From NCBI GenBank assembly GCA_014896485.1, contig JADBKH010000024.1, positions 1 to 32,011 of the forward strand: a stretch of DNA of 32,011 nt, in the 5' to 3' direction. This DNA is from Bacillota bacterium. GTDB taxonomy: Bacteria > Bacillota > Bacilli > Bu12. The stretch's first letter is position 1; each line of letters begins with the position of its first letter. Positions 21,084 to 26,274 of the stretch are shown piece by piece. The translations under genes were made by a program, and so were the position numbers. The notes under the pieces were generated by a model that was not told where the DNA came from, searched no databases, and was given only the letters and a program-made list of their open reading frames with translations.

Positions 21084-21437
21084 TCAGCGGTAGAGCAGCC
21101 AAATGCCCAATGCAATGACCACGGCACCGGCAACCTTATGAGCGGTTAGCGGCTCTTGAAACAAGAAAAACGAGAGGATCTCGATGAGAATATAACCTAC
21201 CGCAAGCGTTGGGTAAGCAATACTGAGCGGCATGCGCGAGAGGACGTAAAGCCACAGCAAGGAGCTGACGACGTATGCGGCAATCCCGGCCAGCACTTTT
21301 GGAGAAAGGAGCAGTCGCAGCAACGATGCATTGAAGGCGACCGTGCCAAACGAACTTACCCCTGCTTTCAAAAAAAGTTGGCCGACAATCCCCAAAAGGA
21401 TCGAAGCTGCCAAGATGACCGCAACTGTCTGTGTCAT
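21084..21437 (-). CDS. Four-helix SMR/EamA-like membrane transporter
   Basis: A 117-residue protein with four predicted transmembrane helices (about 3-22, 35-57, 63-83 and 95-115) of the drug/metabolite transporter superfamily. The pattern LSIAYPTLAVGYILIEILSFFLFQEPLT matches single EamA-repeat and SMR-like proteins (EmrE/ArnE relatives), where PTLAVGY is the conserved loop. The EmrE-type membrane Glu in TM1 is absent (QLFLKAG is seen instead), which argues for an ArnE/undecaprenyl-lipid or unknown role rather than a classical drug:proton antiporter. The ATG at 21437 has GGGAGG 9 bases upstream; the frame is open to 21488. It starts 144 bases after the heptad-repeat gene, past the palindrome, and is followed by the amylase 38 bases on. 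Confidence 0.8.
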   Translation of the reverse strand: MTQTVAVILAASILLGIVGQLFLKAGVSSFGTVAFNASLLRLLLSPKVLAGIAAYVVSSLLWLYVLSRMPLSIAYPTLAVGYILIEILSFFLFQEPLTAHKVAGAVVIALGIWLLYR

Positions 21438-21496
21438 GCTGCGTCGCCTCCCATTACCGCCCATCTGACGCCTCCACTCCAACCGCAACGGGAATC

Positions 21497-21525
21497 ATTG
21501 TCGCCCAATCGATGCAGACAGACAA
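21497..21525 (-). promoter_or_regulatory. Candidate promoter of the SMR-like gene inside the palindrome
   Basis: On the minus strand, TTGTCT and GACAAT are separated by 17 bases (plus-strand AGACAA 21520-21525 and ATTGTC 21497-21502). Each box matches four of six consensus bases. The -35 lies in one arm of the 22-base palindrome, so a protein bound there would control access. Confidence 0.35.
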
Positions 21526-21563
21526 GATGGACGACCCCCCAGTCGTCCATCTTGTCTGTCTGC
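21514..21563. repeat. Perfect 22-base inverted repeat with 6-base loop
   Basis: Arms 21514-21535 and 21542-21563 are exact reverse complements around CCCCCA. The arm begins GCAGACAGACAAG and ends GGACGAC. Neither strand has a T-run after the stem, so it is not a typical intrinsic terminator. It lies between the heptad-repeat gene and the SMR-like gene. Confidence 0.9.
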
Positions 21564-21581: not shown

Positions 21582-23399
21582 TTACTGGCCAATGGCCTTT
21601 GTTTGCAGAAGGAAACGCACCTGTGCGGTCGAATGAGTAGGGATCGGTAAAAAGTGGGTATAGGCATCGGCTTGCGCTTTTCCGGCGTCAAAGTTTGCCT
21701 GTTGCGCGTAGGCCGTATTAAGGCCTTCGACCAGCTTCTCCCGCATGGCAGCCAGTCCCTGATCGAGCTGTTCGGTGCCAGTACCCACCTGCTTTTGGCC
21801 TTCCGCCAACTGCTGTGCACCCGCTTGCAACTGCGTGAGTCCGTCATTGGCCTGGGATAGACCGCTGGCCAATGTCGAAAGTCCTGGCATCTGTTGACCC
21901 TGCAGCTGACCCCCTTTGGCCAAGAGATCAAAGAGCGTCTGTACACCTCCCATCCCCTGGGAAAACTGCTTGAGACCATTGGCAACTCCTTGGGCCCCTT
22001 GGGAGAGTTGTGTAACAGCTGTCGGTAACGCCTTTAAAGGAGTAGCCTGCCCGCTCACTTGCTGCAATCCAGTGGAGACCTTTGGCAATCCTTCGGCCAA
22101 TCCTTGCAGCGCTTCAGCCATCTGCTTTAGCGCCTGCGCCTGTTGTTGCGCATCGGCACTTCCGGATGCCTGGACGGTTTGCGCATCTTTCAACAGCTGC
22201 TGGGCTGCTGGTTTTAGCGCTTGGGTAGGCTCTTGCAACTGTTGCATGCCCGTATTCAGCTGGACAAGCGCATCGGCCAATTTCGGCAAAGCATCGCTTT
22301 GCGTTTTCAATTGTGCCAATCCACCTGCCAGCTGCACACTCCCCTCCGAGAGCTGCTGGGCCGCCGGAGCCAGCTGCTGGGCTGCAGAAGCGCCCTGCAG
22401 GGCGACGCGTTTCTGTGCATCAGCAAGTTGGGCAAGCTTGGCAATTCCAGCCTGACTCTGCCCAAGTCCGGAAGCAATCTGCGCGGAACCATCCGCCAAT
22501 GGTTTACTCCCTACAGCGATGGCATTGGCGGCTTGCTCGATCTGGGTCAGGCCATCCGCCATCGGCTTCATCTGCCCGACAAGATCGGGCAAAGGCAAAT
22601 CGAGTACACCTGGGATCAGTTGAATCTGAAAAGAAGGAAGCTTCAGTGCATCACTTTGCACAGTCAGGGTGAGTTTGTCATCGGGTGCTGGATTGAGGAT
22701 CCAGGAGTAGTTGGTCGTCTTTCCCACCGCCACCGCCATCGCTTTGGGAGCATCCACAGATTGATATTGGTCCATAGGCAATCCCAAGGTCGCCATTGCG
22801 ATAAACGGCGTGTAGACTTCCTGCGATTGCGTTTGTCTCCCACCGCCATACTTCGGCGCCGTCACCTGTTTCTTCTCTTTCAGTTTGTTATGCAGCGTCA
22901 GGGTAACTTCAAGCTTACCAGATTGCCCGGCGATCTGGTTGGCATCGACTGGCTTACCGTTTAATTGATAATGGATCGAGACGGCCACCGGCAGCGGCTG
23001 ATCGCTCGTCGTTTGGTAGTAAAGGTCTCGGTAAGGGGCACCGTTTTGCGTCTTTGGCAGCCCTGTTTGGGTCAGATCAAGGTACCACACCGTCTCCTGT
23101 CCTACCCGTTGAGGGGTTTCAGGGCCACTCAAGTTGACCACGTTTTTCAACGGCTCCGGAATACGTATCGCAACTTTTCCTTCTCCGCTGACACGCAGCC
23201 AATCGACAACGGTCGCCTGTTGTACATGACCATCGGCTGACAGATTGGCATAGACCGTCTGGTGATCCGCAATCGACGCAAGGGAGGCAGGCGTTTCAGC
23301 TGCTTGTGAAGCCTCTCCTTGGCCGGTCCCCAGCACGACGATCAAACTCGCACACACTGCAAGTGCGCATCCCATACGCGTCGTTTTTTTGCTCCACAT
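21582..23399 (-). CDS. Exported heptad-repeat coiled-coil protein (YhgE/Pip-like) paired with an MMPL exporter
   Basis: A 605-residue protein. A signal peptide spans about residues 1-31, with cleavage likely near GEASQA. Residues about 35-275 form a beta-rich exported domain (KVAIRIPEPLKNVVNLSG, PVAVSIHYQLNGKPV, SGKLEVTLTLHNK). From about 280 to 570 it is almost entirely helical, with repeating LxxG-type heptads (for example QLSEGSVQLAGGLAQ and LTQLQAGAQQLAEGQKQV), as in YhgE/Pip proteins. Unlike typical YhgE there is no C-terminal membrane block; the protein ends in a short Gln/Leu tail, so it should be free or peripheral on the outer face. It lies 37 bases after the MMPL gene, with GAGGAGG before the ATG. 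A role as an external accessory to the exporter is inference. Confidence 0.82.
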   Translation of the reverse strand: MWSKKTTRMGCALAVCASLIVVLGTGQGEASQAAETPASLASIADHQTVYANLSADGHVQQATVVDWLRVSGEGKVAIRIPEPLKNVVNLSGPETPQRVGQETVWYLDLTQTGLPKTQNGAPYRDLYYQTTSDQPLPVAVSIHYQLNGKPVDANQIAGQSGKLEVTLTLHNKLKEKKQVTAPKYGGGRQTQSQEVYTPFIAMATLGLPMDQYQSVDAPKAMAVAVGKTTNYSWILNPAPDDKLTLTVQSDALKLPSFQIQLIPGVLDLPLPDLVGQMKPMADGLTQIEQAANAIAVGSKPLADGSAQIASGLGQSQAGIAKLAQLADAQKRVALQGASAAQQLAPAAQQLSEGSVQLAGGLAQLKTQSDALPKLADALVQLNTGMQQLQEPTQALKPAAQQLLKDAQTVQASGSADAQQQAQALKQMAEALQGLAEGLPKVSTGLQQVSGQATPLKALPTAVTQLSQGAQGVANGLKQFSQGMGGVQTLFDLLAKGGQLQGQQMPGLSTLASGLSQANDGLTQLQAGAQQLAEGQKQVGTGTEQLDQGLAAMREKLVEGLNTAYAQQANFDAGKAQADAYTHFLPIPTHSTAQVRFLLQTKAIGQ

Positions 23400-23436
23400 C
23401 TTTATCTTTCCTCCTCTCGGACAGGTTTCTCTTGGA

Positions 23437-25563
23437 TTATCCGGGAAAGGATGCAGGGGGGTTCCCTACACCGACCGGTACATTGCCTTCGGCTTTTTGT
23501 GACCGCCCCCAATGCAACGTCGTCCGCTCAATTACGGGAGTCAGCTTGTACAGCACGGCGGGCAACAAGCAGAGGATGATCGTCATCGAAAGAAGCGCAC
23601 CGCGTGCAATCATCTGCGTCAATTGTGAAAGAATGGGAATATCGCTCAAAACCCAGATCCCCACCAGCGCCAAACACAGGGAAAGACCGCTGGCAATGAT
23701 GGCTTGCGCACTGCGCGCAGTCGCCGCAGCAATCGCTTCCCTTGGTGGTCGAGTAGCGCGTTCTTCGCGGTAACGTGAAGTAAGCAGCAGCGCATAGTTG
23801 ATGGTAGAACCGAGTTGGATGGCACCCAGCGCCAAAGAAGCAACAAAGGGAACACTTTGACCCAGGAAGAAGGAGAGACCTAAATTCAAAAAGACGGCCA
23901 GTTCGATCACGGCAACCAGCAACACCGGAATACTGAAGGAAAGAAAAGCCACGCCAATGATCGCTGCGATCCCCACAATGGAGTACAGATCGACACGCCG
24001 CTGGTCCCCACTGATCATCTTGCTCAGATCATTTTCCAATACTGCTTGACCAGAGAGATAAACGCCCGGGCCAAAACGGGAGACCACTTGCTGTACATGG
24101 GCAAGGGTCTGCTGTCCTTGGTCAGAGGAAGCGTCAGCCTGGGTCGTCACCATGTAGTAGCGCGTCTGCCCATCGATGAATTGATCCCGAACGGCTTGGG
24201 GAACAAACGAGACTGGAACGGTGGGATCGGCGAGGGTGGCATATCCCACGACATCTGAAACGCCCGCAACGTCTTTGACGGCATCGACGAGCGCCTGTTC
24301 ACGGTTCGGGGCCAGGGTGTGGCCGATCACAATATACGAGGCGTCTGCCAAACCAAATCGCGATGTCACGGCATCTAAGGCCTGAATGGACGCAATCTTT
24401 TGCGGCATCATATGATTGACGTTGGTATCCACCTGATTGTTTGCATTGCCGATGGCAGCAGGTACGACCAATAAGACAAGTATACCGATCAAAGTCCAAG
24501 GGTGCCGCATGACCAAACGACCTAATCCGTCCAGTTGGGGGATCAACGGACGATGGCGCAATTTTTCGACCGCACCATCACACAAGAGGATGAGGGACGG
24601 AAGCAGCGTGAGCGCCAAGAGTACGCTGATGGCCACACCCCGAGCCATGGTAATGCCGATGTCACGTCCCAATCCGATATTCATCGCACTCATCGCCAAA
24701 AAGCCGGCGATTGCAGTCGCAGCGCTGGCCAAAACCGCTTGTGCTGTACGGCCGATTGCCTTCGCCATCGCCTCGTGGAAAGGGAAATGATCCCGCTCTT
24801 CCAGATAGCGCATGATGAGAAAGATTGAAAAATCCATACTGACACCAAGTTGCAATGCGGCTGCGATCGCTTGGGTGATATAGGAGAGGCTGCCCCCAGT
24901 AAAGTAGGGAATGCCGAGGTTGATCACCACGCCGACTCCCATCGCCAGCAAGAAGAGAAAGGGGAGCAGGAACGAAGGCATCACAGCCAACAACAAGACT
25001 AGGAGCAAACCGCCTGCTGTCACCAGATACAGAGGCAGCTGTTTCTGAAGCAGCGACTGCAGATCAGCGAGGATAGCCGGCTCTCCTGTCACCTCGGCTC
25101 CCCCGTCAAGAAGGGCACGAATGTGGGAGATAGTCGCATTGGTTCGGGGATCACCGGGTGGAGTCGTCAAGGAGATTTGTAAAAGCGTAGAGCCATCTTT
25201 GGCGTAGAATTGGTCGACCAATGCTTGGGGCCAAAAAGACTTGGGAACCGTCAGATCGGCGAGTGAATCGGACCAAGTGACCTTGCTGACATTCGGAACA
25301 TGTGCAATGCGATCCTTAAGGGCAAGGACGCGCCAGTCCGGTGTTTTTTGGAGCAAAACGACCACAGAACCGTTCATCCGAAAATGGTCGTCCAGAATGC
25401 GTTGACCTTGCATGGCCGGGAGATCTGCGGGCATGTACGAGAAAAGATCATAGTTGACCCGTGTATGCGCAGCACCATACGCAGCGGGAATGGCCAAAAG
25501 GAGACAGAGGGTGAGAATAACCCACCGCAAGCGCACGATCTGGGTTCCGATGCGCTCAAACAT
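23437..25563 (-). CDS. MMPL/RND family membrane exporter
   Basis: A 708-residue transporter of the MMPL branch of the RND superfamily, with the internal duplication expected: one N-terminal TM (about 13-30), an extracytoplasmic loop of about 140 residues, a five-helix bundle (about 180-330), then the same pattern again (TM near 350, loop, bundle to about 690). Diagnostic segments are SYMPADLPAMQGQRILDD, LQLGVSMDFSIFLIMRYLEERD in the first half and LGAIQLGSTINYALLLTSRYREER in the second. The second-half Asn (TINYALLL) replaces the more usual Asp of TM10 (TVDYALF). Homologues export lipids, siderophores or antimicrobial compounds in Gram-positives. It overlaps the marR stop by 8 bases (25556-25563). 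Confidence 0.92.
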   Translation of the reverse strand: MFERIGTQIVRLRWVILTLCLLLAIPAAYGAAHTRVNYDLFSYMPADLPAMQGQRILDDHFRMNGSVVVLLQKTPDWRVLALKDRIAHVPNVSKVTWSDSLADLTVPKSFWPQALVDQFYAKDGSTLLQISLTTPPGDPRTNATISHIRALLDGGAEVTGEPAILADLQSLLQKQLPLYLVTAGGLLLVLLLAVMPSFLLPFLFLLAMGVGVVINLGIPYFTGGSLSYITQAIAAALQLGVSMDFSIFLIMRYLEERDHFPFHEAMAKAIGRTAQAVLASAATAIAGFLAMSAMNIGLGRDIGITMARGVAISVLLALTLLPSLILLCDGAVEKLRHRPLIPQLDGLGRLVMRHPWTLIGILVLLVVPAAIGNANNQVDTNVNHMMPQKIASIQALDAVTSRFGLADASYIVIGHTLAPNREQALVDAVKDVAGVSDVVGYATLADPTVPVSFVPQAVRDQFIDGQTRYYMVTTQADASSDQGQQTLAHVQQVVSRFGPGVYLSGQAVLENDLSKMISGDQRRVDLYSIVGIAAIIGVAFLSFSIPVLLVAVIELAVFLNLGLSFFLGQSVPFVASLALGAIQLGSTINYALLLTSRYREERATRPPREAIAAATARSAQAIIASGLSLCLALVGIWVLSDIPILSQLTQMIARGALLSMTIILCLLPAVLYKLTPVIERTTLHWGRSQKAEGNVPVGVGNPPASFPG

Positions 25564-26002
25564 CTTCTTTCTCCTCGATCTTCTCTACCCGTTCGACGAT
25601 TCTCGTCAACAAAACGAGGAGCTGGTCTTGCTCGGTTTCGTTGAGCACCTGCATATACTCCTGATAGACCGCCCGTTTCTCCTTTTCCAACCGCGTCAGC
25701 AGCTGCTCCCCACGCTTGGTCAGGCGGACCCAAATCGTCCGCCTATCCTTCGGATCATGGAGTCGCTCGACCCAACCTCCTGCAATGCCACGATCGACTG
25801 TGGCCGTGGCCGTGCTTTGGCGCACTTGTAATGCGGCAGCCAAGTCGCGCATGCGCAGTGGCGCCGGCCACAACGCCTGGAGCAGCATCCAAATGCCGGC
25901 CGTGGCACCCTCTTCCAGGATCGCATCCAAGCGCTGGCGCAAATGTCGTACAAGTTTCCAAAAGACGCGATCGAGTTCATCCATACGATCGGCCCGGACC
26001 AT
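25556..26002 (-). CDS. MarR family transcriptional regulator
   Basis: A 148-residue winged-helix regulator. Visible: LRMRDLAAALQVRQSTATATVDRGIAGGWVERLHDPKDRRTIWVRLTKRG, of which the helix-turn-helix is about residues 53-90 and DPKDRRTIWVRLT is the wing, with amphipathic dimerisation helices on each side. MarR proteins usually repress adjacent efflux genes and release DNA on binding phenolic or oxidising ligands; no redox Cys is seen. The ATG at 26002 has AGGAGGTG 6 bases upstream. The longer frame from 26044 would run over the regulatory repeats. First gene of the MMPL operon and probably autoregulated. Confidence 0.92.
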   Translation of the reverse strand: MVRADRMDELDRVFWKLVRHLRQRLDAILEEGATAGIWMLLQALWPAPLRMRDLAAALQVRQSTATATVDRGIAGGWVERLHDPKDRRTIWVRLTKRGEQLLTRLEKEKRAVYQEYMQVLNETEQDQLLVLLTRIVERVEKIEEKEDV

Positions 26003-26048: not shown

Positions 26049-26077
26049 TTCGACAGTGCAATAGTACGTCTGTCGAA
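26049..26077. promoter_or_regulatory. Candidate MarR operator upstream of marR-MMPL
   Basis: Perfect inverted arms TTCGACAG (26049-26056) and CTGTCGAA (26070-26077) with a 13-base spacer that contains the second ATAGTACGTC copy (26061-26070). It lies 47-75 bases upstream of the marR ATG, where a repressor would act. A clear promoter was not identified. Confidence 0.5.
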
Positions 26078-26274
26078 TGAATTTATTCTACTGCGTCTCT
26101 GCGACCTTTTTCTAACCTTTGGCGGAAAAATGCATCAAAAGAACTTCGGGGTAGCCTACTGTGGGGAAGGGAGATCAAGCCCATTTGGGGGATCAGAAAA
26201 GGGACTGTCTTTTCCACGGACAAAGCAGCCCCTGGCCCTAGAAGAAAAGGAAGGATGGAAAACCGCGCAATCCC
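26078..26274. other. Gap between marR regulatory region and the deacetylase gene
   Basis: About 200 bases without a convincing gene. It should hold the upstream part of the marR promoter and the 3' end of the deacetylase transcript, but I see no stem with a T-run on the minus strand and no clear promoter boxes. A short A/T-rich stretch follows the candidate operator. Confidence 0.5.

Follow-up and report, generated by a model that had tools for sequence, protein, structure and literature searches.

An MMPL pump and an exported heptad-coil protein, paired in almost all Bacillota loci surveyed, suggest a two-part exporter with a predicted mu-homology-like head

The DNA analysed here (the window) is a stretch of 32,011 nucleotides from a Bacillota bacterium (assembly GCA_014896485.1, contig JADBKH010000024.1), which on its minus strand carries three real genes encoding a MarR-type regulator, an MMPL/RND pump and an exported heptad protein. 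The original prediction of a three-gene unit, its frames overlapping by 8 bases at the first junction and lying 37 bases apart at the second, proved exact in its coordinates, the marR and pump frames sharing positions 25556-25563 and the pump and heptad-protein genes being separated by positions 23400-23436, and the products matched PF12802/PF01047, PF03176 and TIGR03057, respectively. The unit and its flanks contain the following features:

26085..26114, minus strand: sigma-70-like promoter match, 9/12 (consensus match only)
26049..26077, no strand assigned: perfect inverted repeat TTCGACAG-13-CTGTCGAA, upstream of marR (sequence)
25556..26002, minus strand: marR-type regulator, 148 aa (PF12802 and PF01047 over cut-off)
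23437..25563, minus strand: MMPL/RND pump, 708 aa, without a coiled-coil insert (PF03176; subfamily profile)
21582..23399, minus strand: exported heptad protein, 605 aa (TIGR03057; pump-adjacent in relatives)
21514..21563, no strand assigned: 22-bp perfect hairpin, terminator-like, 18 bases past the last stop codon (sequence)

The longest possible marR frame extends to 26044; the start adopted here, an ATG, has a good ribosome site. The inverted repeat upstream is a likely operator, judging by its sequence. Downstream, behind the hairpin, a small membrane protein that reads as SMR/EamA transporter-like (21084-21488, minus strand) is probably a separate unit. By kinship, as a member of the same class as Tepidibacillus, the host cell is taken to be Gram-positive.

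The pump scored 227 bits against PF03176 (cut-off 20.5) in two stretches, either half exceeding the cut-off, and these two halves are the only PF03176 matches over the Pfam cut-off in its own genome, where two weaker matches lie elsewhere. Two positions stand out in its membrane segments:

24829..24834, minus strand: TM4 Asp244-Phe245 (motif position)
23794..23799, minus strand: TM10 Asn589-Tyr590, in GSTINYALL (motif position)

MmpL3 is described as having a pair of Asp-Tyr dyads that span TM4 and TM10 (PMC7458404), a feature of MmpL3 that is not known to define the whole MMPL family; the window pump lacks the full set, retaining Asp244 and Tyr590 and carrying Phe245 and Asn589 in place of the second dyad. 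The Asn that had been pointed out where Asp is usual is confirmed as Asn589, and it is a conserved feature of a clade: among 72 pump rows (70 genomes, as two rows repeat a genome), the TM10 position is Asp in 61 and Asn in 11 (9/70 genomes). TM10 Asn is always accompanied by Phe after the TM4 Asp (11/11 rows), 8 further rows combining Phe with Asp, and it has at least two origins on the tree (support for the window clade 0.997; L116 and L119 separate). This constant association indicates that one of the two Asp-Tyr dyads was lost, and the window's clade would retain a single dyad, as judged by motif position and not read on a structure. The asymmetric energy coupling suggested at the outset thereby becomes a testable idea.

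The third gene product is organized as a beta-rich head interrupted by a long coil:

23298..23399, minus strand: signal-peptide-like N-terminus, residues 1-34 (read from sequence; pLDDT <50 for residues 1-39)
22611..23276, minus strand: beta head domain with a mu-homology-like fold, residues 42-263 (predicted structure)
21663..22583, minus strand: LxxG heptad coil, residues 273-579 (periodicity, structure model)
21879..21914, minus strand: helix break GGQLQGQQMPGL, residues 496-507, kept in the near clade (alignment, model)
21600..21632, minus strand: C-terminal strand completing the head, residues 590-600 (block-mean pLDDT 86-94 for residues 581-600)

TIGR03057, a 28-residue repeat, was the sole family over its cut-off for this protein (36 bits, cut-off 18.6). 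Its only hydrophobic segment is N-terminal, and by reading there is no membrane segment beyond the predicted signal peptide. The coil displays a 3.5-residue hydrophobicity period that 0 of 5000 permutations reached. In the full-length model it forms one excursion between strands of a single head domain, and the break within it, conserved in the near clade as GG.LQGQ..PGL, is a possible hairpin tip; the conserved ends of the coil and this break fit an out-and-back hairpin. The middle of the coil is modelled with low confidence (block-mean pLDDT 35-72), and coil length is highly variable among relatives, with a whole-protein length of 417 to 1033 aa in intact-looking partners while the pump varies little. 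The coil also resembles PDB entries of designed antiparallel coiled coils, a likeness set aside as probably due to composition (Ala, Gln, Leu, Gly). An amphipathic C-terminal tail (e.g., GFWDRLLDLFR) is present in 24 of 25 class genomes, a count made by eye as automatic labels overlook several visible tails; the window protein is the exception, and the tail is also absent from L032, L033 and L034. Shortening of the window protein by a frameshift was rejected, since the hairpin begins 18 bases beyond the stop codon and leaves no space before it for the tail of the relatives. A plasmid search with the heptad protein returned one unannotated record with 28% identity over 32%.

No Pfam or NCBIfam family matched the head (about 220 residues) at E 1. 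AlphaFold modelled it confidently on its own (mean pLDDT 88), and in the full-length prediction the confident parts were again the head (residues 42-263) and the strand at residues 590-600, most of the coil being not confident. Structural comparison of the head without its last strand gave a Z of 8.8 against mu-homology domains, near background, while inclusion of the strand raised the VIA Z to 12.9 (rmsd 4.1, 202 aligned residues) against the mu-homology domain of AP-2/COPI coats and gave a Foldseek E of 1.3e-7 (prob 1.00). Among the matches listed by Foldseek and by VIA, 50 of 50 in each case were mu-homology domains or chains containing one; target-normalised TM-scores of 0.28-0.50 indicate a shared fold with no close match. 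The predicted model, to be read as a model only, gives the head the two-subdomain beta fold of the mu-homology domain known from AP-1 to AP-4, COPI delta, FCHo and SGIP1, over about 202 residues with the last strand included. Unlike these eukaryotic domains, the head is bacterial and exported, has a coil inserted before its last strand and shows no sequence signal. Homology of sequence to AP-2 mu2 was unsupported, the hhalign score of 13.4 falling within the range of 40 shuffles (mean 12.8, max 17.7); the test is weak, as it used a single mu2 sequence and 53 of 68 relatives, 15 having been left out, either for a last strand that the pattern missed or for a head that could not be placed. The open-licence literature, in which the Greek letter mu is poorly searchable, yielded nothing on a bacterial mu-homology domain or on the pump/partner pair.

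The pairing of pump and partner was followed in surveys of the class and the phylum. A head profile built from 10 rows and a pump profile built from 9 rows (E 1e-60) found the identical 25 of 398 class genomes, an exact match that is threshold-dependent because the pump profile was built from paired pumps. In all 25, head and pump genes are adjacent on one strand with junctions of -34 to +56 bases; at L063, unknown bases divide the pump frame in two. Across the phylum, the head profile found 48 of 398 genomes, 43 of them with a pump alongside. Three of these 48 places were already known and 45 new ones were read, the pump standing directly before the partner in 40 (once as half a pump at a contig start), at junctions of -67 to +67 bases, and not standing there in 5. 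Among those five, L121 has the partner alone, with the pump of the same genome on another contig (L161), and the partner of L154 is a fragment; at L131, L134 and L138 the partner carries a C-terminal membrane segment and follows a 5-TM protein of 169-195 aa, with no MMPL pump:

L131:3575-6069, L134:2558-5061 and L138:2923-5478: membrane-anchored head-and-coil proteins (the 5-TM neighbour in L131 is DUF1097-like)

At L153, the partner is split across two frames and adjoins an intact-looking pump. Viewed from the pump side, 42 of 46 phylum pumps of the subfamily (rows at E 1e-180 or better, counted from the table) have the partner alongside; two of the remaining four end at a contig edge (G659, G723) and two have no neighbouring partner (G705, G638). 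The pumps of L160 and L161 are followed by a TetR-like gene, and the partner is not alongside. A pump-first profile search that did not require the partner yielded 8 named loci, and the partner is encoded next in all six that have downstream DNA, namely Tepidibacillus, Bacillus methanolicus, Geobacillus and metagenome records titled Actinobacteria, Eubacteriales and Spirochaetales; the other two end inside the pump. Taken as mechanical frames, the junctions range from -71 to +67 bases overall. The class and phylum surveys rule out chance neighbours. Of the two outcomes that would have counted against the original prediction, an unconserved pairing or a heptad protein encoded elsewhere, neither prevailed, the pairing being near-obligate, and the original interpretation is supported in part.

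Regulators vary by clade (MarR, TetR, an HTH protein), yet the pump keeps its partner. The regulator upstream in Tepidibacillus (L030:5173-5850) fits the Fe_dep_repress N-terminal domain just over the cut-off. Over 67 pairs, from which two duplicate genomes had been removed beforehand, pump and head distances correlated with a Mantel r of 0.915 (max of 999 permutations 0.161), which demonstrates co-inheritance and not contact. At L167:3146-4445, a pump reduced to 188 aa is followed by a frame with heptads, resembling a decayed pair.

The extracellular LxxG heptad coil is shared with YhgE/Pip and EsaA, in which it is fused to membrane segments, unlike the anchor-less protein described here. This contrast, drawn from the window alone at the outset, held in the survey: all 15 coil-only loci examined (L006-L020) are multi-span proteins, most of them YhgE-like in layout and two MMPL-like, the latter holding heptads within that frame. 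For a single example of either layout, family models matched TIGR03061/TIGR03062 in L010 and MMPL in L009. The identification of the window protein as a YhgE was rejected, TIGR03061 and TIGR03062 being unmatched at E 1. The fused MMPL layout occurs in the same class:

L009:628-3771 and L013:622-3702: MMPL-like spans and heptads in one frame of more than 1000 residues (MMPL model confirmed for L009)

Periplasmic adaptors such as AcrA are exported, have a beta part at both chain ends with a helical excursion between, and are encoded beside an RND pump. The window partner resembles them in export, beta ends, helical excursion and an adjoining RND pump gene, and differs in its mu-homology-like head and in matching no adaptor family, the HlyD and AcrA models being unmatched at E 1 in Pfam/NCBIfam scans of the locus. 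We know of no outer-membrane partner of the window system, whose relatives we take to be mostly monoderm.

The mycobacterial pumps MmpL4, MmpL5 and MmpL10 with MmpS likewise combine an MMPL pump with a small beta domain and a coiled coil that is long, antiparallel and extracytoplasmic, the coil being an insert within periplasmic domain 2 (PMC12501195, PMC12183618). As reported there, deletion of the MmpL5 coil abolishes efflux, the MmpL5 tube being modelled at 13 nm (PMC12501195), and the MmpL10 coil drives oligomerisation (PMC12183618). In the window, by contrast, coil and beta domain form one separate exported protein, the pump is insert-less and the MmpS model was unmatched at E 1 in Pfam/NCBIfam scans of the locus proteins.

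The near-constant pairing and the predicted coat-like head suggest a two-part exporter, so far unnamed. In the mechanism proposed, the proton-driven pump would extrude an amphiphile (perhaps a lipid, detergent or antibiotic) from the membrane, the beta head of the partner would dock on the outer face of the pump, and its long antiparallel coil would project outwards in the role of the fused coil of mycobacterial MmpL pumps. The coil could hold a putative pump oligomer together and guide it, as a conduit, or tether it into the wall, and MarR would repress the unit. Docking of a coil supplied in trans is proposed by analogy, as the fused coil is required for MmpL5 efflux and MmpL10 oligomerisation (PMC12501195, PMC12183618). 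Such a two-component MMPL exporter, to which we assign an even chance, is favoured by the survey counts (25/25 in the class, 43/48 partners and 42/46 pumps in the phylum, 6/6 pump-first loci), the persistence of the pair while regulators change between clades, the Mantel correlation, the single excursion of the coil from the head like the out-and-back chain of an adaptor, the fused MMPL-heptad pump in the same class and the mycobacterial coil data. Arguing against it are the partners without an adjacent MMPL pump (L131, L134, L138, L121 and L154), the pumps without a neighbouring partner (L160, L161), the low-confidence middle of the coil and the lack of an outer membrane at the far end of a tube across a monoderm wall; moreover, linkage and parallel distances are also compatible with mere co-inheritance.

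The partner might have other roles. As a substrate carrier or extractor, its head would use beta-augmentation to receive an amphiphile or peptide from the pump, and the coil would shield this cargo, with no tube; resemblance to a peptide-binding domain, the wide range of partner lengths beside a pump that varies little, and the amphipathic tail of most relatives, suited to a membrane surface, speak for this reading, yet a likeness of fold gives no function and the window protein is tail-less, and we consider it unlikely. A long coil that varies in length but keeps its ends conserved would also suit a wall spacer, or an anchor holding the pump in position, with no part in transport. The Pfam/NCBIfam scans of the locus proteins found no wall-binding domain, though, and a one-to-one match with a single pump subfamily exceeds the needs of a general spacer; we take this role to be distinctly unlikely. 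Pump and partner might finally be co-regulated and act apart, the coil protein serving, for example, as a surface stress protein; in the phylum, 5 of 48 partners stand without a pump next to them, and three of these adjoin another membrane protein, but none of 398 class genomes had either of the two alone at the thresholds used, and we judge separate action very improbable.

The two-component exporter could also be taken further. An exported bacterial mu-homology domain, related to the eukaryotic coat cargo-binding domain by descent or strong convergence, would grip a strand or tail of the MMPL pump by beta-augmentation, and a removable coiled-coil barrel before its last strand would extend the pump through the wall as the monoderm counterpart of a periplasmic adaptor, with a single Asp-Tyr dyad in the pumps of the window's clade; taken whole, this is a long shot. 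If the two-component exporter is true, a second subunit, so far without a name, belongs to a widespread Gram-positive pump. The coiled coil on which mycobacterial MmpL pumps depend, and which matters for drug resistance, would then have a soluble and separable counterpart more amenable to study. Likewise, the head fold as predicted would provide a bacterial look-alike of eukaryotic coat adaptors.

The next-nearest pumps (804-861 aa) contain about 90 additional residues in the second outer domain, and the exported protein encoded after them is of another kind:

L168:1530-5030, L169:1331-4945 and L171:1308-5078: exported proteins of 1166-1256 aa with a C-terminal membrane segment (genes overlap the pump end)

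Three of these partners were read whole, and GLUG motifs occur in both of the two scanned. Considering that these pumps also precede an exported protein, association with exported partners may be more general among MMPL pumps.
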